Source: Sulfurimonas sp. HSL1-2 (lineage in GTDB: Bacteria; Campylobacterota; Campylobacteria; Campylobacterales; Sulfurimonadaceae). From it: 64,000 bases of DNA. The notes beneath the pieces are model-generated. The model searched no databases. It was not told the DNA's origin and saw nothing but the letters and a program-made list of their open reading frames with translations. How positions within the stretch are numbered: the first letter of the stretch is position 1; each line of letters begins with the position of its first letter. Shown one piece after another: positions 1,705 through 33,103 of this stretch. A program made the translations under genes and the position numbers. The stretch lies in the NCBI RefSeq assembly GCF_039645565.1, contig NZ_CP147914.1:2353573-2417572 (forward strand), given 5' to 3'.

Positions 1705-2973
1705 TTACATCACCGTCCGGTTGCGACCGAGCTGTTTGGCACGGTAGAGGTTCATATCCGCTTCGAAGACGAGGTGGCGGGGGTTGTCGCGCAGCCGTTC
1801 GCTGTATTCGGCGATGCCGATACTCACCGTGACCGGCGTCGTAATGACACACCCCTCCCATGTATGGGCTTCAAACGCTGACCGTATTTTTTCACAGATC
1901 GCAAACGCCTCTTTTGCCGTCGTCCCCGGCAGGATCGCCAGGAACTCTTCGCCGCCGTACCGGAAGATGTGATCCGTCTTGCGCAGATGGGTCAAAAGCG
2001 TTTCCGCCATCCCGACGATGACCGTATCTCCGTCCTGGTGGCCGCAGGTGTCATTGACCGCTTTGAAATGGTCGAGGTCGAACATGACGACGCAGAAGAG
2101 ACTGCCGATAAGGCCGTGCAGACGGATCTCGCTGCTGAGGATCTCCATCAGGTCCCGGCGGTTCAGCAAGCCCGTCAGGGCATCCTTTGAGACATCATCG
2201 ATCAAAGTCTGCTGCGTCACATTGATATTGAGTTCGTTGTAGAGGTACATCGACTGGCGGACCAGCATGACGTAGTCGATAAAGATCTTGTGATAGTCTC
2301 CACGGCGGATGGATCGGTAGATATTCTTGGTGATCAGGTGGATCTCCCGGTGCGTATCGAGCATATCCTTGCGCACCATCGGGTCCGGGATGAACTTGAC
2401 AAGCTCCTCGCTGTGCAGCCAGCTGCCGCACATACAGCGGTGTTCGTCAAACTCGATCCGCGCTTCGGGGTTCATCAGCCGGATATCCTTGATGACCTCG
2501 AGGATCCACTCCAGGTGCTCTTTGACCGCGGGGATGCCGATCTGCTGTTTGATCTGCCGCTCGAGGGTCTTCTGGTCGTTGTCCAGGTTCGGCTCCAGGT
2601 AACCGGCAGCACTGGCGTTGATGGCCCGGCGGATATAGAGCTCGATCGCTTCCGGCAGGCCCGTAATATCGTTCACCTCTTCAAGCTCATCGATCAAAAA
2701 GGCATAGAGTGTGTCGAAAGCACCGCGGTACTCGACATAGGGCAGGCCCATCTTGAAATGAAAGAGGCCCAGCTGTTTAAAGCGTGCGAAAAAAGCCTCA
2801 TCTTCATCATAGACGGCCTCGAGGAAACTGCTAAGCTGGGACTGCTTGAGGCGGACGAGGTCTACGCCTTTGAGAAACTCCTCAACATAGGCGTTCTTGA
2901 TCAGGTCCTCATAAAAACGGTCAAAGGCACGGTGCAGCACCCCTTCGAAAAGGGAGATGTTCGATCTGATCAT
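1705..2973 (-). CDS. globin-coupled, CZB-containing diguanylate cyclase
   Basis: A 422-residue soluble protein with three modules. Residues 1-125 look like a protoglobin sensor: RLKQSQ near 41-46 and LGLFHFKMGLP with a candidate haem-proximal His72. Residues 145-240 match a CZB zinc-binding domain, with ligands H153, C180 in CMCGSW, H208 and H212 at the spacing known from DgcZ. Residues 262-422 are GGDEF, with active site RYGGEEF at 338-344, so cyclic-di-GMP synthesis is expected. AAAGGAGAG precedes the ATG. O2/NO sensing and zinc control are inferred from the families. An inhibitory RxxD motif was not evident. Confidence 0.85.
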   Translation of the reverse strand: MIRSNISLFEGVLHRAFDRFYEDLIKNAYVEEFLKGVDLVRLKQSQLSSFLEAVYDEDEAFFARFKQLGLFHFKMGLPYVEYRGAFDTLYAFLIDELEEVNDITGLPEAIELYIRRAINASAAGYLEPNLDNDQKTLERQIKQQIGIPAVKEHLEWILEVIKDIRLMNPEARIEFDEHRCMCGSWLHSEELVKFIPDPMVRKDMLDTHREIHLITKNIYRSIRRGDYHKIFIDYVMLVRQSMYLYNELNINVTQQTLIDDVSKDALTGLLNRRDLMEILSSEIRLHGLIGSLFCVVMFDLDHFKAVNDTCGHQDGDTVIVGMAETLLTHLRKTDHIFRYGGEEFLAILPGTTAKEAFAICEKIRSAFEAHTWEGCVITTPVTVSIGIAEYSERLRDNPRHLVFEADMNLYRAKQLGRNRTVM

Positions 2974-3033
2974 CCTCTCTCCTTTAACCGTTATAAATTA
3001 TTCTAATGTGAATTTATATGAGCCAATAAAATC

Positions 3034-3039
3034 ATTATA
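3034..3039 (-). promoter_or_regulatory. -10 box upstream of globin-CZB-GGDEF gene
   Basis: ATTATA on the plus strand reads TATAAT on the minus strand, about 61 bases upstream of the ATG of the cyclase. The leader between them is A+T-rich and holds further TATAA-like words, so the exact start is uncertain. Confidence 0.4.
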
Positions 3040-3083
3040 CACAAAATTTTGATACCTGATCGTTTGGCGCTGTGTCCTCCGCC

Positions 3084-3803
3084 CTAGCTGATAATCGCGT
3101 CGTGCCACTGCACCAGGGTCAGCCGGTAGCCGTCGGACACAGGAAGGACCTCGTGGCTGTAGATGGGATTGCTCGGGAAAATGACCATATCCCCCGCCTT
3201 CGGACGGAAACGGACAGGCCTGTTCTCCGCATCATAGAGGTAGTTAAAGACCAGTTCGCCGCCGCCGAACTGCAGCCCGTCGCCGCCGTTGTCCCGATGC
3301 GACGTTGCAAAAAGGACTGTCGTGATCTTTCGCTCGGGCGCGACCTGGGCAAAACCGACCGTTTCCCCCTCACAGTTGACAAGCTCGTTCGAGTCGTCGG
3401 CATGTTTGATATAGAAACCGCCCCGCGTGTACTCCAACGCCTGCACTTCGGTCGCCGTTGTCAGTGCCACACTGAAATAGTCTTCGATCTGTTTCTGATA
3501 ATAGGCGAAACTGAGCTTGTACCCCTCGAGCAGAATTTCAGGCAGTTCGTGGATCGCTGTCTTTCGGATATCCTCCTCGAGCTCCGGCACGACGACACCG
3601 TGGAAGTTTTTTTTGACTTTGGCCCGCTCCCCCTCGCTTTTATCGTGGGTATAGGCCGCGATCTCGGCGCAGGCCTCTTCCGAGAGAAAGTTCTCGATGA
3701 TGAGATAGGGGTAGTCGTAATAGGGGTTTGCCATCAGGCGGGTCTCGTAGCGCAGCTCGGCGATGAAGTCATCGCAGTAGACATAGTTGCTGATTTGCCG
3801 CAA
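3084..3803 (-). CDS. 2OG-Fe(II) oxygenase, prolyl 4-hydroxylase-like
   Basis: The double-stranded beta-helix dioxygenase signature is visible: HxD in KHADDSNE (iron ligands), and a distal His plus the 2-oxoglutarate-binding Arg in SHEVLPVSDGYRLTLVQW near the C-terminus. The GDMVIFPSN segment is typical of prolyl 4-hydroxylase-type enzymes. The protein target is unknown. I chose the TTG at 3803 because GGAGAA sits about 6 bases upstream; the longer TTG at 3854 and the ATG at 3734 have no good ribosome site. The choice changes only the first 23 residues. It lies just downstream of tRNA-Pro. Confidence 0.75.
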   Translation of the reverse strand: MRQISNYVYCDDFIAELRYETRLMANPYYDYPYLIIENFLSEEACAEIAAYTHDKSEGERAKVKKNFHGVVVPELEEDIRKTAIHELPEILLEGYKLSFAYYQKQIEDYFSVALTTATEVQALEYTRGGFYIKHADDSNELVNCEGETVGFAQVAPERKITTVLFATSHRDNGGDGLQFGGGELVFNYLYDAENRPVRFRPKAGDMVIFPSNPIYSHEVLPVSDGYRLTLVQWHDAIIS

Positions 3804-3881
3804 AGGGTTCTCCGTGCCTGCAAAGGCGAATGTGAAATCTGAAATAGTAACCAAAATTTGAAAAAGAGAATCGGTGAAAAG

Positions 3882-23928: not shown

Positions 23929-25160
23929 ACCTGTATCACCTCGATAGGATTAAGCTTTTTGAGCCTTCGCATCGGCAGCAGCACCGAAACGAGCGCCGCC
24001 GCGATAATGGCCAGGAAGGTATTGGTAAAGTAGCGGCTCTTGATGTCGGCATACACGACGGCGTTGTAGCCGAACGCCTCCAGCCCCGCCGCGTATTCGC
24101 GCAGGTCCAGCCCCTGCGTCTGCAGGTACCACAGGGCGGCGTAGCTTGTACACGCGCCCAGGACGAAGCCGACCACACCCAGCACCAGCGCCTCCGCGGC
24201 GACCTGTATGCGCAGCTGCGACTGGGGAGTACCCAGCGCAATGAGGATGCCGAATTCGCGAGTGCGTTCCAGGACAGAGACGAGCATGACGCCGAAGATG
24301 CCGATGAGGACCACAAGCATCACAATGGCGAAGGTGATGGAGTTGAAGATGACCATCATCTCCTGCATCTGTTTGAGCACCGGGTAGAGCGTCTGCCACG
24401 TCTCGACGTCAAGCCCCGGGAAGGCAGCCTTCAGCCGCGCGGCAACCGCTTCCGTCTGCAAAGGCTCAGCCAGCCGCACGGCCACCTGGGTCGCGCCGTT
24501 CGCACCCAACCCTGAAAAGGTGCGGCTGCGCGGCAGGGCGACGTAGATCGTCTGGTTGTCGATGAGCAGGTTCGACGTCTGCACGATTGCCGTCACATAG
24601 AGCGAGACGGCACTGATATCCCCCTGGTCATTCTGCGAGGAAAAGACCAGGCGGTGCCCCACCTCGACGCCCAGGTCCTCCGCCAGTTTCTTGCCGATGG
24701 CGCAGCCGTTCTGCCGCCGCCCCCAGTCGATCTTTCCCGCTTTGACAAAACCGGAGAGCTGCCCGAAGCGCTCTTCGGCTTCCAGGTCGATGCCGACCAG
24801 ACGTCCCATCGCCGATTTGCGCGCCGTCGACGCCAGGCCGGTCTGCGAGAGCCGGACGGAGTAGGCGGCGACCGCCGGGTCCGCATCGAGTGCCGCCAGC
24901 AGGGGGCGGTCGTCGGCGATGGCGTACTCCAGGCTCTGGTAGAGGCGGAAATCTGGGGCATAAACGGAAATCTCGCCGCTGTCGCTGCGGATCGTACTCT
25001 CGCGCATCGTCTTGACCATCCCGTCGTAAAGCCCCTCGATGGCGAGCATCGCCGTCATACTGCCGGCGATCATGAGAATGACGAGCGCGGAGCGTCGGGC
25101 GCGGCGCCACAGGTTGAACCACGCCATCTTCAGTGCCAACGCGAAGGTCGCCTTAGACAT
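23925..25160 (-). CDS. FtsX/MacB-type ABC permease (second)
   Basis: 411 residues from the ATG at 25160, which overlaps the stop of the preceding permease by 8 bases. Longer upstream frames run into that gene. One N-terminal membrane segment, a large periplasmic domain, then three C-terminal segments including FGVMLVSVLERTREFGIL, the FtsX-domain signature. Ends RRLKKLNPIEVIQV, typical of LolC/E- and MacB-like permeases. Confidence 0.9.
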   Translation of the reverse strand: MSKATFALALKMAWFNLWRRARRSALVILMIAGSMTAMLAIEGLYDGMVKTMRESTIRSDSGEISVYAPDFRLYQSLEYAIADDRPLLAALDADPAVAAYSVRLSQTGLASTARKSAMGRLVGIDLEAEERFGQLSGFVKAGKIDWGRRQNGCAIGKKLAEDLGVEVGHRLVFSSQNDQGDISAVSLYVTAIVQTSNLLIDNQTIYVALPRSRTFSGLGANGATQVAVRLAEPLQTEAVAARLKAAFPGLDVETWQTLYPVLKQMQEMMVIFNSITFAIVMLVVLIGIFGVMLVSVLERTREFGILIALGTPQSQLRIQVAAEALVLGVVGFVLGACTSYAALWYLQTQGLDLREYAAGLEAFGYNAVVYADIKSRYFTNTFLAIIAAALVSVLLPMRRLKKLNPIEVIQV

Positions 25161-26373
25161 GGTGCATCGCCTCCACGGGGGTGTAACGTTTGACGACCGC
25201 AATGGGGTAGAGGACCGCCAGCATATTGAGCGCAAAGACGACCCCCGCGTTCCAGCCGATGGTGAACCAGTCGAAACGCATCGGGATCTGGTCGTCGACG
25301 ATCCCGTAATCACGGTACGCCTCCGCGATCCCCTCGATAACGACGGGGTGCAGTTCATAGTACCAGGCGATCGGCGCCCCGACGGCCACGGAAGCCCCGA
25401 CGGCAGAGAGGGCTATCAGCAGCATCTCCAGCAGCAGCAGCGCGGAGACGTTCCGGGGAGAGAGGCCAATGGCGCGCAGCATCCCCAGCTCCCGGGTCCG
25501 CCCGACGATATTGAGGAAACTGAAAATCATGATGACAAAGAAGATGACGACGAAGAAGACCCCCATCGAGATGTAGCCGAAAACACTGTCCACCTCCATC
25601 GCTTCCACCTGCGCATGCATCAGCACCGTCCACGGCACCGCCTCCAGCCCCCTGGCCAGGCCGGACTGCACCGCTTTGACCGTCTGCGGCAACGCCGCAA
25701 GGTCGTCGACGGAAGCAACGATGTACGACGCCATATCCCCGCTCAGCATCAGCGTGTCGTAGTACGTCTTGTTCACAAACGCGGAAGAGGCGTCAAATTC
25801 GAAAAGGCCCGTTTTGAAGATACCGACGACCCGGAAGTTGTCGGCGGCAAAGGAGTCGTCCGTCGCCGTGCCGATGAGAGCAACCGTATCGCCGACCCCT
25901 ATTTTAAGCCTTACCGCCAGTTCGCTGCCGATGTAAAGCGCATTGGTATCGTTATCGTCGAGGTAGCGCCCCTCGCGGCGTGCTTCGGCCATTTTGGACA
26001 GCCGGCGTTCCCGTCCGGGGTCGATACCCACCACCATCGCCCCGACGGAGTCGCGGGGGGTCGAGAGCAGCGCAAAACTCTCCAGGCGCGGGGCGTAGGC
26101 CGTGATCCCCGCCGTGCGCGCCAGCAGTGCCTCCTCCGCGGAAACGTCGGTCAGCAGGTAATCGTAACCGCCCTCTTCGCGGTACCCTTTTTTGTAGACA
26201 TGCAGGGCGTTTTCGTAGACGTCAAGGGCACTTTTGAGCATATGCGCATGCGAACCGTCCATCAGGGCGACGTAGACGATAAAGAGCAGGGAGCTGAAAA
26301 AGGTCAGGGCGAAGGTAACGACGGTCCGCCCTTTGTAATGCAGGATGTTTTTCAGCGCCAGTCCGAACATCAT
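25153..26373 (-). CDS. FtsX/LolE-type ABC permease (first)
   Basis: 406 residues. An N-terminal membrane anchor (TVVTFALTFFSSLLFIVYVAL), a periplasmic domain of about 230 residues, then three membrane segments with NIVGRTRELGMLRAIGLSPR, the FtsX-domain motif. The heterodimer with the next permease and the LolD-like ATPase suggests lipoprotein or other envelope-substrate extraction, not drug efflux. Starts 6 bases after the LolA-like gene. Confidence 0.9.
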   Translation of the reverse strand: MMFGLALKNILHYKGRTVVTFALTFFSSLLFIVYVALMDGSHAHMLKSALDVYENALHVYKKGYREEGGYDYLLTDVSAEEALLARTAGITAYAPRLESFALLSTPRDSVGAMVVGIDPGRERRLSKMAEARREGRYLDDNDTNALYIGSELAVRLKIGVGDTVALIGTATDDSFAADNFRVVGIFKTGLFEFDASSAFVNKTYYDTLMLSGDMASYIVASVDDLAALPQTVKAVQSGLARGLEAVPWTVLMHAQVEAMEVDSVFGYISMGVFFVVIFFVIMIFSFLNIVGRTRELGMLRAIGLSPRNVSALLLLEMLLIALSAVGASVAVGAPIAWYYELHPVVIEGIAEAYRDYGIVDDQIPMRFDWFTIGWNAGVVFALNMLAVLYPIAVVKRYTPVEAMHHV

Positions 26374-26379
26374 GATCCC

Positions 26380-27111
26380 CTAGCGCGAGTAGCGTTTGAG
26401 CGCCTGCTTCGTGAAGTAGCTGCCGCTCACGCCCCGGTCGTAGACGACGTCGGAGAGGAGTACCAGCGTCTCGTTCTTCTCCTTGCCCTTCTCCAGCGGT
26501 TTGATCCTCATCACCGTCGGGAGATGGTGACTGCCGAAGATTTTCACGTCGCTGTAGAACATTTCGCGTACCGCGCTGCCGAAATCGTCGTAAAAGACAT
26601 CGTGGATCTGCGTATAGGTGCGCCGGTCGATCGTCGAGACGATCCGTCCCCACACGACGGCTGCATCGGGTTTCGGGGTGAACGCAATGGTCACCGTCTC
26701 CGCCGTCTTTTCGAGGATCTCCGCATCGTAGTCGTCGACCATCGAGCTCTCTTTGACCATGTCGTCGTTGGTAAGGTCGCTCCCCATCCAGCTCTGCAGC
26801 ATCATCGACGGCGGGATCTTGACGATTCGTTCGATCTTCGGCACGTACTGCCAAAGCTGCTTGTCGAGTTTCAAAAAGGTGATGCCGCGGTCTTTGGGCG
26901 GGTAGAGGATCTTCATAAAGCTCTTCGTCTTCCCTTCGGCCCAACTCTCGATCCGTACCGTCCGCTTGTGCCGGGCCGAGGTAATGACCATCTCCAGCTT
27001 CATGTAGACGTCTTTGCCCCGCAGGTTATCCTCGACCTTTTTGACAATGTCGGATGCCTCGGAACCGAACAGTAGGAGCGTTGTCGAGAGCCAGACCACC
27101 AGTAACCGCAT
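26380..27111 (-). CDS. LolA-like periplasmic lipoprotein-sorting protein
   Basis: 243 residues with a signal peptide (MRLLVVWLSTTLLLFGSEA). The rest resembles the LolA-like outer-membrane lipoprotein-sorting family (PF17131 type), with strands KSFMKILYPPKDRGITFLKL and QLWQYVPKIERIVKIPPSMM. It probably carries the hydrophobic substrate of the ABC transporter across the periplasm. It is the first gene of the operon. AAGGGAAAG precedes the ATG. Confidence 0.8.
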   Translation of the reverse strand: MRLLVVWLSTTLLLFGSEASDIVKKVEDNLRGKDVYMKLEMVITSARHKRTVRIESWAEGKTKSFMKILYPPKDRGITFLKLDKQLWQYVPKIERIVKIPPSMMLQSWMGSDLTNDDMVKESSMVDDYDAEILEKTAETVTIAFTPKPDAAVVWGRIVSTIDRRTYTQIHDVFYDDFGSAVREMFYSDVKIFGSHHLPTVMRIKPLEKGKEKNETLVLLSDVVYDRGVSGSYFTKQALKRYSR

Positions 27112-27859: not shown

Positions 27860-28534
27860 TTAACGGCCCTTAGACGTCTTTTTATCTTTTGATGCCTTCT
27901 TTCTTTTGGGCTTCTTCTTGCCTTTTGATGCCTTCTTGGCCTTCGATGCCTTCTTCCCTTTCGAAGGCTTCTGCGCCTTCGAAGGATACCGCTCTTCTGA
28001 TAGGCCGGAACTCATATTTTCCGGCATATCGGCACTGTCTTTAGCATAGCGGATGTCTCTTTTACTGTCTCTTACCAGAGCGTCCATATAGGCCGATTTC
28101 CCCTCCAACCGCTTCTGCTTGTAAAAAGCGACAAGCGTGTCGCGAAGTCGGAAGTCATCACGTATGACCGCCGGTTCCGTGGACACGATCCGCATGACAC
28201 GCTTCGTATCCCCGGCTTTTTGTGCGGAAAGTACTTCCCTTTTAACGTCCACCATCAGGCGGTCGTGTGTTTTCTGCAGACTACGGAGCTCTCCGAGATA
28301 GGCGTTCCGTTCCTGCGCAGTTCCAGTCTGCTGTACTTTCAGGCCATCCTCTCGAACAGATTGCGCCTGTCGCACATAAGCACTTACACTGCCGCCGAGC
28401 TTGGCATCACTTTTCAATGCCCCGGTTTTTGCTGCATAACTGAACAGCGGATCACCCATCTGCGGAAAGAGCGTCGGATAGACATCGCCCGCCCAAAGCT
28501 GCAATGCTGTCAACATCAGTAGTACAATTTTCAT
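27860..28534 (-). CDS. secreted protein with Lys/Ser-rich C-terminal tail
   Basis: 224 residues from the ATG at 28534, which has AAGGGGTGG upstream. A signal peptide (MKIVLLMLTALQLWAG) is followed by a mainly helical, charged domain. The last 42 or so residues are a low-complexity tail of KASK/KGKK-type repeats. Such polybasic tails occur on histone-H1-like and wall- or nucleic-acid-binding proteins. I do not recognise the main domain. It would be exported to the periplasm or beyond. Confidence 0.65.
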   Translation of the reverse strand: MKIVLLMLTALQLWAGDVYPTLFPQMGDPLFSYAAKTGALKSDAKLGGSVSAYVRQAQSVREDGLKVQQTGTAQERNAYLGELRSLQKTHDRLMVDVKREVLSAQKAGDTKRVMRIVSTEPAVIRDDFRLRDTLVAFYKQKRLEGKSAYMDALVRDSKRDIRYAKDSADMPENMSSGLSEERYPSKAQKPSKGKKASKAKKASKGKKKPKRKKASKDKKTSKGR

Positions 28535-28631
28535 CGTTCCACCCCTTACGGTTCCATTCATAAAGATGCATTGTAACACGGATCAAATAGCATGAGGGGA
28601 ACAAAAAAACATGGTGGGCGGTTGCGCCGAA

Positions 28632-29394: not shown

Positions 29395-29910
29395 TCACCG
29401 CAGCAGGACCGGTTTGATCCACTCCGGCTCGGCGTAATCGACCTCCGGAAGGGTGTTCAGGCGGTTGGTCTGCCCGATCAGCTCTCCGGCACCGGCAGGC
29501 GCGAAAAGGTAGATGCCCGCCGAAGCGTTCACAGCCTGCAGCAGGGTGAACCCCTGCCCTGCGGCAAACGTCTCGGGCGCAGTCCCCGGCTGCAGACGGA
29601 CCAGGACATTTCCCGTCGCGATAAAGCGGTTGCGTTCGCTCCGGCGTTCGGAAGTGTAGAACACCCGACGGTATTCGGAGCCGGAAGCGGCCGTTTTCGC
29701 CGCCACTTCGGCCGGGGCAACCGCCACGACCCGCTTTGCCGATGCACCGGCTGCGGGGGAGACGGCCATTTCATCCTCGGCGCGGTAAAAAACCATCACG
29801 GATTTTTTTGTTTCCAGCACCTGTTTGGTCATTGTCGGGGCATCGGCCGCAAAAGCTGTTCCCGCCAGTAAAAACACAGCCAGTCCAATCATTCGTATCA
29901 TCTTATTCAT
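29395..29910 (-). CDS. secreted subtilase-propeptide-like protein
   Basis: 171 residues with a signal peptide ending AGTAFA. The C-terminal 70 residues (VLVRLQPGTAPETFA, then LPEVDYAEPEW) look like the propeptide that precedes the catalytic domain in fervidolysin/subtilisin-type proteases, which folds the enzyme and inhibits it. No catalytic domain follows. It begins 3 bases after the stop of the subtilisin-like lipoprotein gene, so the pair is co-translated. A chaperone or inhibitor acting in trans on that protease is the likely role; this is inference. Confidence 0.6.
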   Translation of the reverse strand: MNKMIRMIGLAVFLLAGTAFAADAPTMTKQVLETKKSVMVFYRAEDEMAVSPAAGASAKRVVAVAPAEVAAKTAASGSEYRRVFYTSERRSERNRFIATGNVLVRLQPGTAPETFAAGQGFTLLQAVNASAGIYLFAPAGAGELIGQTNRLNTLPEVDYAEPEWIKPVLLR

Positions 29911-29913
29911 CCC

Positions 29914-32340
29914 TTAATGCCCCCGGATCTGCAAAGACCAGCTATTGAGAGTCCCGGTCGTACCGCTCCGAAGATCTTTCACATTCAGCGTCCATGTTCC
30001 TGATGCATTTTCGTCAAGACAGCGGACGGTGGAAAATCGCCAGTCGGAATAACTTCCCTCAAGATAGTACTGCCCGCCGTATGCCAGGTGGCTCTGCGTA
30101 CCCTGCGGCGATACGAGTACGATATCGAGATCACCCGGACGCGCGTGCGAGATCGTCACCCAAACGTCAACATGCTCTACTTTCACCGGTTGCGGCGGAG
30201 TGACTGTAATGGACGAGGTCACCCCTGTCGTCCCTTCAGAAATTGACTGGTTCGGCGAAGCCGTTTGCTTCGGCAGCACCGTTTCCGCTCCCAACGACGT
30301 AAAGTTTTCCGCCTCAGCAACAGCCTTGTCGGCATCTACCAGTCCAAATCCATAGTTATGGTTGATTGGATAACCCGCACCGTTGGTCGTCCAGTCACCG
30401 TCGCTTGGATCGATCTTCTTTGCCGTCGTCGCCAGGATGTAACCCACATCACGGTAGGTGAGTGCGGGATTCGCAGTGAGCATCAACGCGGCGATGCCGC
30501 TGACGATCGGCGTTGCCGCCGACGTCCCGTTCATATAGTTGGTATAGTCTCCATTCTCATTACCCGGGACATCAAAACGGTAACCGCCGCGATAGCTGTT
30601 CGCAAAACCGGTTGAATCCAGACCGTATGTCAACCCTGTATAATCGGTCGTCACGATAGCAGGTTCATTTACACCGTACTCCCCGCCGGGTGCCGACACA
30701 AGAATATTGGCACCATAATTGGCGTAAGACGAGTATTGTCCATCCGCATTGATTGCTGTAATGGTAAGAACGTACGGGTTATTCAAAATCTCGGAGTTGT
30801 TAGCATTTCCAATATGAAGGGTATTGTTGTTTTCGTCTTTATATCCATTGTAGTTGCGGTCATTTCCCGCTGCAAAGACAATGACGGTACCTTTTCCGTC
30901 CCTGCCTGTTTCCGTTGCCGTCTGCACTGAAGCGACAAGCGTCGGATCGGGAACCAAAAACTCCGAACCGTACCCCCAGCTGTTCGAGGAAATATCTATC
31001 GCCTTATTCAGCGCATCGGCAAAGTTTGCATCTGTCGGAAGCGAGAATACATTGTATCCTGCCACTTTCACAAAAGGAGCCACCCCTCGCACCCCGATGT
31101 CATTCCACCCAGAAGCAGCGATCAAACCTGCACAAGCTGTCCCGTGGCTGGAGCCGTAAGGATCCGATGTCAGCTGATCCGCATCGGGTGAGGGATCACT
31201 GGCACCGTCGGAATATCGGTAACTTTTTGAAAGGTCAAGGTTAGCGGCCAGATCAGGGTGAACCGCCTGAACCCCGGTATCAACAACACCGACAAAAATA
31301 CTCCTGCGGCCCGCGTAAGATTCCCATACCGGGACGACATTGATATCGTTCCCCGGTATGCCACTGCCGCCATAAATGCTGCCTGCATCCTGTCCGGTGT
31401 TTTCAAGGTGCCACTGATAATCATAAAGGGCATCTATGTGGTCTACTGTATCGCTCACGGTCGGATCGGTTCCGGCAAAAAACTCGCCATAATCACCGAG
31501 TGCATCCCCGTCGCTGTTCGCGGCTGCCGGATTCGTACCGACCAGCAGTTCGAAATCATCAAAAAGAGCGTCATTGTCCGTATCGTGGAACAGGTGGACC
31601 GTTCCCGTATACAGTTCCTGTATGGTCGCCGATGCCGCCGCATCTGCATAGGACTGCGCATCAGACAGGAGCGTCAGATCTTCCATCACACCGCCCGTGC
31701 TCAGTTTCGCCGGGTTGAATGCACTGAGCGCCGTCCCTGAAACCTTGAAAAGACGCTCGGAAAGCTTGGCAAGCACCGATTTAATCTCTGTTTCGTCTGT
31801 CAATTTCTCCTGTCGGATCCACTCCGCTGCAATCGTGGTGAAGGCGTTCACCCTCACATTATTGTTAAGTAGATCCGCTACCGTCACATACGCATAAAGG
31901 CTACCCTGCACCGGTTTGATCTCGACTTTAACATACTGGCCGTCGTCGTCGGGGTCGATATCCACGCCCCCTTCACTTTTCACAAGTACCAGCCTTGTCG
32001 ATGCCAAGCCGCCAAGTGACGTAACGGCAAACTTACCAACCGTCTGCTCCGCGTAAGGCACCAGCGTATGGTTGTCATCCATCAGCTCTGTTGCGGCATT
32101 GAATGTTGTTGTCTTCGTCTGGTAGAGATTCTGCCCCGCGACGTCCCATACTGTGATCGTTGCACCGCTTATAGGGCCCAATGCCACACTGTTTTTTGCC
32201 GTCGGGTCACTCGGCGTCACGGGATCATCCGTCGCCGTTCCCGAGCTGGTACTCGTCCCGCAACCGCTGAACAGCAATATCAACCCGAGCATCATCATAC
32301 CGCTGCCCGTCGCCAGCCGATGGAATATATTCTGCTGCAC
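29914..32340 (-). CDS. subtilisin-like lipoprotein protease with P-domain
   Basis: 808 residues from a GTG with AAGGGG upstream. Lipobox LFSGC (Cys27) anchors it in the envelope. Residues 30-250 form an unrecognised N-terminal domain. Acidic repeats DTDNDALFDDFE and NSDGDALGDYGE (252-290) look like calcium-binding thrombospondin-type repeats. The S8 domain has the triad D354 (VVDTGV), H399 (SSHGTACAG) and S607 (NGTSAATP), plus oxyanion N493. A proprotein-convertase P-domain covers about 690-808. No propeptide is evident before the catalytic domain; the next gene may supply it. Codon use is more A+T-rich than in neighbours. Confidence 0.92.
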   Translation of the reverse strand: MQQNIFHRLATGSGMMMLGLILLFSGCGTSTSSGTATDDPVTPSDPTAKNSVALGPISGATITVWDVAGQNLYQTKTTTFNAATELMDDNHTLVPYAEQTVGKFAVTSLGGLASTRLVLVKSEGGVDIDPDDDGQYVKVEIKPVQGSLYAYVTVADLLNNNVRVNAFTTIAAEWIRQEKLTDETEIKSVLAKLSERLFKVSGTALSAFNPAKLSTGGVMEDLTLLSDAQSYADAAASATIQELYTGTVHLFHDTDNDALFDDFELLVGTNPAAANSDGDALGDYGEFFAGTDPTVSDTVDHIDALYDYQWHLENTGQDAGSIYGGSGIPGNDINVVPVWESYAGRRSIFVGVVDTGVQAVHPDLAANLDLSKSYRYSDGASDPSPDADQLTSDPYGSSHGTACAGLIAASGWNDIGVRGVAPFVKVAGYNVFSLPTDANFADALNKAIDISSNSWGYGSEFLVPDPTLVASVQTATETGRDGKGTVIVFAAGNDRNYNGYKDENNNTLHIGNANNSEILNNPYVLTITAINADGQYSSYANYGANILVSAPGGEYGVNEPAIVTTDYTGLTYGLDSTGFANSYRGGYRFDVPGNENGDYTNYMNGTSAATPIVSGIAALMLTANPALTYRDVGYILATTAKKIDPSDGDWTTNGAGYPINHNYGFGLVDADKAVAEAENFTSLGAETVLPKQTASPNQSISEGTTGVTSSITVTPPQPVKVEHVDVWVTISHARPGDLDIVLVSPQGTQSHLAYGGQYYLEGSYSDWRFSTVRCLDENASGTWTLNVKDLRSGTTGTLNSWSLQIRGH

Positions 32341-32670: not shown

Positions 32671-32759
32671 TGGCGGACAGACAGGGATTCGAACCCTGGG
32701 AGGTATGACCCTCGCCGGTTTTCAAGACCGGTGCATTCAACCAGCTCTGCCATCTGTCC
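32671..32759 (-). tRNA. tRNA-Ser (TGA)
   Basis: Acceptor GGACAGA/TCTGTCC, anticodon loop CTTGAAA (anticodon TGA), a long variable arm and encoded CCA. 89 bases, typical of a class II tRNA. Confidence 0.95.
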
Positions 32760-32781
32760 ATAAAAAAAGTCGGAGTTTTGG

Positions 32782-32855
32782 TGGAGGCGCCACCCGGACT
32801 CGAACCGGGGATCAAGGTTTTGCAAACCCATGCCTTACCACTTGGCTATGGCGCC
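32782..32855 (-). tRNA. tRNA-Cys (GCA)
   Basis: Acceptor GGCGCCA/TGGCGCC, anticodon loop TTGCAAA (anticodon GCA), T-loop TTCGAGT and encoded CCA. The outer anticodon-stem pairs are weak, as in related tRNA-Cys. Confidence 0.93.
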
Positions 32856-32860
32856 ACCGG

Positions 32861-32948
32861 TGGTGCCCGGAGCCGGGATCGAACCGGCACGATCGCAATG
32901 ATCGAGGGATTTTAAGTCCCTTGCGTCTACCAATTTCGCCATCCGGGC
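32861..32948 (-). tRNA. tRNA-Leu (TAA)
   Basis: Acceptor GCCCGGA/TCCGGGC, anticodon loop CTTAAAA (anticodon TAA), long variable arm and encoded CCA; 88 bases. It directly follows a terminator-like hairpin. Confidence 0.95.
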
Positions 32949-32958
32949 TCAAGACACC

Positions 32959-33010
32959 AAAAAAAACCCCAACTCAGACCTCTTGTAAAGAAAAGAAGTT
33001 TCAGTTGGGG
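32959..33010 (-). terminator. terminator-like hairpin between tRNA-Gly and tRNA-Leu
   Basis: On the minus strand CCCCAACT pairs with AGTTGGGG across a 28-base loop, and eight T follow directly. The loop can form further partial pairing. This looks like an intrinsic terminator for tRNA-Gly, yet only ten bases separate it from tRNA-Leu, leaving no room for another promoter. Confidence 0.55.
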
Positions 33011-33028
33011 TGTTTAAATGAATAAAAA

Positions 33029-33103
33029 TGGAGCGGGAAACGAGGTTCGAACTCGCGACCCCAACCTTGGCAAGGTTGTGCTCTACCACTGAGCTATTCC
33101 CGC
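33029..33103 (-). tRNA. tRNA-Gly (GCC)
   Basis: Acceptor GCGGGAA/TTCCCGC, D-stem GCTC/GAGC, anticodon loop TTGCCAA (anticodon GCC), T-loop TTCGAAC and encoded CCA; 75 bases. First gene of the four-tRNA cluster. Confidence 0.96.

Follow-up and report, generated by a model that had tools for sequence, protein, structure and literature searches.

A lipoprotein subtilase and its ORF2-like candidate trans propeptide in Sulfurimonas sp. HSL1-2, with a census of the Campylobacterota

The gene pair and its surroundings

The window, i.e., the whole stretch of 64,000 nucleotides of Sulfurimonas sp. HSL1-2 that was analysed, carries a subtilase lipoprotein gene with a gene for a small secreted protein directly after it (Table 1). 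Loci elsewhere in this and other genomes are designated by L numbers.

Table 1. Positions and strand of the features of the window that are discussed here.
Feature	Positions	Strand	Description
Protease gene	29914-32340	(-)	S8 subtilase lipoprotein, 808 residues, without a propeptide; ASP/kexin-like P domain; lipobox Cys27, N-terminal domain (~250 residues), two TSP3-like repeats, S8 domain (347-666), P domain (721-805)
TSP3-like Ca-binding repeats (n=2)	31461-31584	(-)	residues ~253-293 of the protease, between the N-terminal and S8 domains; D-x-D-x-D...E pattern visible
Intergenic gap, 3 bases	29911-29913	(-)	TAA-GGG-ATG: protease stop codon ending at 29914, GGG in the gap, ATG of the small gene from 29910; both genes in the same frame
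Small gene	29395-29910	(-)	secreted ORF2-like protein, 171 residues, predicted stand-alone propeptide; signal peptide (~1-22), variable linker, prodomain (~95-171), C-terminus EPEWIKPVLLR
Four tRNA genes	32671-33103	(-)	Ser-TGA, Cys-GCA, Leu-TAA, Gly-GCC; cluster in the interval between the protease gene and ilvD
LolCE-like permease gene	25153-27111	(-)	below the family cut-off; ~3 kb from the lipoprotein protease
Small exported-protein gene			adjoins the LolCE-like permease gene; lipoprotein-sorting look
Exported-protein gene	27860-28579	(-)	long repetitive basic Lys/Ala/Ser-rich C-terminus (SKGKKASKAKKASKGKK...); no match in NCBIfam

The protease matches Peptidase_S8 (E 1.4e-43) and P_proprotein (E 1.5e-23) in Pfam, and has the full catalytic set (Asp354, His399, Asn493, Ser607). 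Its lipobox, LLFSGC (FSGC), is kept by all orthologues. The original prediction saw here a lipoprotein protease in which the S8 domain is complete, a P domain is present and no propeptide can be seen, and this description holds: no propeptide model matched residues 1-340 in Pfam and HMM searches. A natural deletion has removed about 250 residues from the orthologue in L046 (555 residues; 2211-3878 (-)), in the interval from lipobox to S8, yet the S8 domain, the P domain and the partner small gene are retained. The N-terminal domain is thus not a propeptide, and judged from L046 it is dispensable; a propeptide hidden in residues 30-300 is ruled out by the HMM searches together with this deletion. 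The calcium-binding-like repeats that had been noticed ahead of the S8 domain are TSP3-like, sub-threshold here (TSP3_bac, E 0.15 in Pfam) and above the cut-off in a paralogue (L009:8196-10655, E 2.5e-7). The protease finds its best PDB matches in Aeromonas sobria ASP, both as 3hjr (E 7e-53) and in the ASP-ORF2 complex (3wqb), with furin and kexin ranking next.

The coordinates and gene order given for the small gene, three bases further on, were exact, and the identical 3-base gap is found in the orthologous pairs of L040, L042, L044 and L046. The encoded protein bears a Sec-type signal peptide (read by eye), and its C-terminal domain ends VDYAEPEWIKPVLLR.

There are four S8 genes in this genome. 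Three, namely that of the window and two in L009, encode S8+P lipoproteins, and an ORF2-like gene follows each of them directly; the small protein is 25-32% identical to its two paralogues, which likewise follow S8+P lipoproteins. The fourth protease has no P domain and is not a lipoprotein, and by eye its N-terminal prosegment resembles an ordinary cis propeptide, although Pfam gave no match on that segment. Across eight genomes of the genus, all ten P-domain proteases are paired with an ORF2-like gene, and no partner occurs without a protease.

It had also been proposed that the operon is more A+T-rich than its surroundings, as would fit acquisition. The protease gene agrees with this, at 53.5% GC where genes average 57.7% (sd 2.9), but the small gene (61% GC) does not, so that the low GC is confined to the former. 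In each of the four congeners with an orthologue, plsC/rnhB and ilvD flank the pair as they do here, and the flanking proteins are 90-99% identical. Because synteny is conserved in these four congeners, recent acquisition is unsupported, and the GC content of the small gene also opposes it.

Homology of the small protein to ORF2

In A. sobria, the gene for the chaperone ORF2 lies just downstream of that for ASP; ORF2 is required to obtain active protease and is also its inhibitor, with an IC50 of 84 nM (PMC5638518). The C-terminal ~70 residues of our small protein had been read as propeptide-like. In Pfam, PF18492 (ORF_2_N) matches the protein at E 6e-4 and 20.4 bits, below the curated cut-off of 29.2 bits; PF22148 (Fervidolysin_NPro-like) and Inhibitor_I9 gave nothing at E<=1. 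The orthologue in L040 has a weak Fervidolysin_NPro-like match (E 0.096, 13.5 bits), and PF22148 weakly matches 10 of 51 separate propeptides at E<=0.01. A match to a propeptide family thus exists, sub-threshold for the single sequence, and on this point the earlier reading is not contradicted. Neither phmmer with the protein nor a 15-row profile found ORF2 or anything meaningful in the PDB, and comparison of profiles A3 and A4 gave E 0.005 at low probability.

Weak scores against ORF2 are expected, because even the two ORF2s of the known type from Vibrio and Pseudoalteromonas share little sequence, and the Vibrio protein reaches the A. sobria one in the PDB (phmmer) only at E 0.04. ASP/ORF2-type operons are present on large replicons of Vibrio campbellii (L051) and Pseudoalteromonas (L053), and the Pseudoalteromonas ORF2 passes the PF18492 cut-off (38.9 bits). 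We built a homology profile iteratively from sequences of Campylobacterota, the host phylum, only. Applied out of sample to 26 ORFs, this HMM picked the ORF2s of V. campbellii and Pseudoalteromonas and no others (E 2.5e-5 and 1.8e-4), the next-best ORF having E 3.1. The final profile, which did include these two gammaproteobacterial ORF2s, matches 65 of the 1408 ORFs of the census loci, all but two of which adjoin or sit inside S8 genes. In the S8 tree, the proteases with a downstream propeptide gene cluster with the ASP homologues of L051 and L053. A PF18492 scan of 369 genomes, from the class of a Methylobacter genome, gave no match, but its controls were silent too, which leaves it uninformative, and a scan of genome contigs returned distant subtilases only.

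An AlphaFold model of the small domain, made from a shallow alignment without the orthologues identified here, has a mean pLDDT of 59 (about 80 for core residues 20-65), and in this low-confidence model the core has the strand-helix-strand-strand-helix (E-H-E-E-H) order of subtilase prodomains. A Foldseek search of 350,542 PDB chains placed prodomains of PC1/3 and other subtilases in the top five (8c4x_B, 9fid_D, 9fid_F, 9fie_B, 9fic), at non-significant E values of 0.18-0.38; we presume that 8c4x_B, which is listed as 'PAM Protease' and is 81 residues long, is a prodomain. A second comparison with VIA gave the PC1/3 prodomain a Z of at most 3.3, level with chains unrelated to it; a common fold dominated its results, which therefore add nothing to those of Foldseek. 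ORF2 was not among the matches listed in either fold search. A model of protease and small protein fused by reading TAA as Gln, again from a shallow alignment, was uninformative (pLDDT 45).

Separate and fused propeptides in the Campylobacterota

We extended the comparison to 75 non-autotransporter S8 genes from 397 genomes of the phylum, a non-random sample drawn from ranked hit lists; long S8 autotransporters also occur in two of its families. A separate propeptide-like gene adjoins 49 of the 75 (18 genera, 7 families), downstream as in ASP in 26 cases and upstream in 23. The homologous propeptide is fused in cis in nine further genes, and none was detected in the remaining 17. The upstream-type proteases belong to another S8 branch and lack a P domain, all but one (L124). 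Adjacent pairs of the kind seen in the window thus recur, in either gene order, across the phylum.

All 49 proteases with a trans propeptide carry a lipobox (three settled by eye) and none of the nine with a cis propeptide does (Fisher ~1e-10, kinship ignored). The S8 tree holds just one supported independent trans/cis contrast (three in the best tree), too few for a test of the lipobox association. Outside the phylum, the V. campbellii ASP homologue of L051 has a trans propeptide and no lipobox, the Pseudoalteromonas homologue of L053 has a lipobox, and a Halanaerobiaceae lipoprotein protease (L027) has its propeptide in cis.

The C-terminus of the separate propeptides is fixed in position. 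In 47 of 51 it lies exactly nine residues past a nearly invariant Pro, the tail being otherwise free to vary in sequence, and the sequence closes with Arg in 28 cases, Tyr in 10 and Lys in 3 (Arg or Lys in 31). The five closest cis relatives (L119, L123, L186, L197, L199) have Arg at the equivalent +9 position, followed by the apparent mature N-terminus. The separate propeptide thus seems to end at the point of cleavage in cis, and its C-terminus could therefore lie in the active site in the manner of a product. An acidic residue at protease position 437, in a variable loop, had appeared to track the C-terminal Arg, but this association was an artefact of the alignment and was lost on realignment.

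The census also yielded several unusual loci. Propeptide-like small lipoproteins lie about 500 bases downstream of a cis-propeptide S8 gene in L209 (5245-5628 (+)) and L210 (4-570 (-)), and are possible stand-alone inhibitors. In L114, L118, L121 and L139 the separate propeptide itself apparently has a lipobox, so both partners may be membrane-anchored in some genera. A propeptide gene in L115 (2880-3745 (+)) is followed by a short S8 fragment only, and the protease looks broken or frameshifted. Genome G204 contains two S8+P protease copies with identical scores (contig C1, 1088462-1089769 and 1352772-1354079), probably a recent duplication, the first of which lies in L124 with its propeptide gene upstream. 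Finally, a cyanobacterial MAG (L024, 1057-7495 (+)) has the propeptide and protease parts of one subtilase in ORFs that overlap and are shifted in frame; this is probably a cis gene that was split artificially by misassembly or a frameshift.

Interpretation and comparison with known systems

Very probably, the pair consists of a lipid-anchored, kexin-like S8+P subtilase and a homologue of ORF2 that serves it in trans as propeptide, i.e., as chaperone and temporary inhibitor, a function that we transfer from ASP/ORF2. The original proposal of a propeptide encoded separately downstream and acting in trans is favoured by the homology to ORF2, the conserved adjacency, the fold search and the fixed C-terminus. 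Export of both proteins would be through Sec. The prodomain of the small protein, predicted to be beta-alpha-beta-beta-alpha, may then pack on the S8 domain, either in the periplasm or on the cell surface, and aid its folding, while its C-terminus (..PVLLR, with Arg as P1) would enter the active site in the form of a product that needs no prior cleavage. Such a placement has a parallel in ORF2, whose C-terminal Lys sits at the catalytic Ser of ASP, an enzyme that cleaves after Lys (PMC5638518). The small protein would then be released or digested, leaving the active protease. Because no N-terminal segment must be removed, the protease would keep its lipid anchor.

A different role for the small protein would be that of a pure inhibitor or immunity protein against its own protease, which would then fold unaided. 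The product-like C-terminus would suit tight inhibition alone, and the small lipoproteins of L209 and L210 look like pure inhibitors beside a protease with a cis propeptide. Here, however, the partner protease itself carries no propeptide, subtilases generally need one for folding, and a single domain occurs in either the cis or the trans form. Together with the requirement of ORF2 for active ASP (PMC5638518), these points make inhibition alone improbable. It is still harder to believe that the small gene is a decaying or unrelated secreted-protein gene placed there by chance. Low paralogue identity (25-27%) and a score below the Pfam cut-off might be cited for such a view, but they have to be set against pairing without exception in the genus, a homologue at 49 of the 75 S8 genes of the phylum, a fixed C-terminal distance and intact frames.

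Why a trans propeptide should have been adopted is a separate matter. We tentatively propose, at slightly less than even confidence, that the propeptide was split off repeatedly, with either gene order as the outcome, as a way for lipoprotein proteases to avoid losing their lipid anchor on its autocatalytic removal; the trans C-terminus would have been fixed at the former autoprocessing site, and the class would be a large one with ASP/ORF2 as a single branch. The loss is illustrated by PrtP of Treponema denticola, because its acylated cis propeptide is cut off on activation: mature PrtP loses the lipid and is thought to depend on PrcA1 and PrcB for anchoring (PMC8167434). This case and the lipobox contrast between trans and cis proteases of the phylum speak against the alternative that the propeptide is separate for other reasons, such as dosage, reuse by several protease molecules or regulation by degradation, the lipobox correlation being inherited from few ancestors. 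That alternative nevertheless has close to an even chance of being correct, with the scarcity of independent trans/cis contrasts and the exceptions of L051 and L027 in its favour, and the anchor-sparing idea is an inference from few independent transitions. It opposes the anchor-saving rationale only and leaves the trans-propeptide reading untouched.

The proposal makes a concrete prediction, that a trans propeptide accompanies N-terminal lipidation. Matched cis and trans versions of one prodomain also provide a natural experiment on covalent versus separate propeptides, and many candidate small trans chaperones become available for the production of lipid-anchored or otherwise hard-to-fold subtilases.

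Among known systems, the eukaryotic ones are similar in having a propeptide-like domain without an attached protease, as in plant SPI-1, a stand-alone subtilase propeptide-like protein. Such proteins inhibit proteases that already have a cis propeptide, and to our knowledge their genes are not adjacent to those of their targets. Another is the propeptide-like inhibitor of Plasmodium SUB1, also a stand-alone protein (PMC6993865). The prodomains of fervidolysin-type proteases and PC1/3 are alike in the weak PF22148 matches and the top Foldseek chains; unlike the small protein, they form the N-terminal part of one precursor and are autocatalytically removed. Dentilisin PrtP is a surface lipoprotein subtilase whose operon also encodes a small partner, PrcB, without which PrtP is not expressed, but its propeptide carries the lipid in cis, so that activation costs the anchor.

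The closest system is ASP/ORF2 of A. sobria (3HJR, 3WQB, 2MK4; PF18492), which shares a propeptide-less kexin-like S8+P protease, a small secreted gene directly after it, and an ORF2-like prodomain that ends like a cleavage product, in a basic residue as the putative P1. The Sulfurimonas pair differs in its phylum, in the protease, which is a lipoprotein and has TSP3 repeats and an additional N-terminal domain, in a small protein below the PF18492 cut-off and in the presence of three such pairs in its genome. A 2022 survey of subtilases lists ASP as the single exception to an N-terminal propeptide (PMC9549277), whereas our census adds dozens in one phylum. The trans arrangement, which the original prediction had called unusual, therefore has a precedent in ASP/ORF2 (PMC5638518) and is common in the host phylum. 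In a search of open-licence papers, we found no description of the lipid-anchored variant, its spread, the upstream order, the matched cis forms or the C-terminal register. The separate propeptide itself is thus already known from ASP/ORF2, and what is new is its lipid-anchored variant, spread over many genera, with an upstream gene order, matched cis forms and a fixed C-terminal register.
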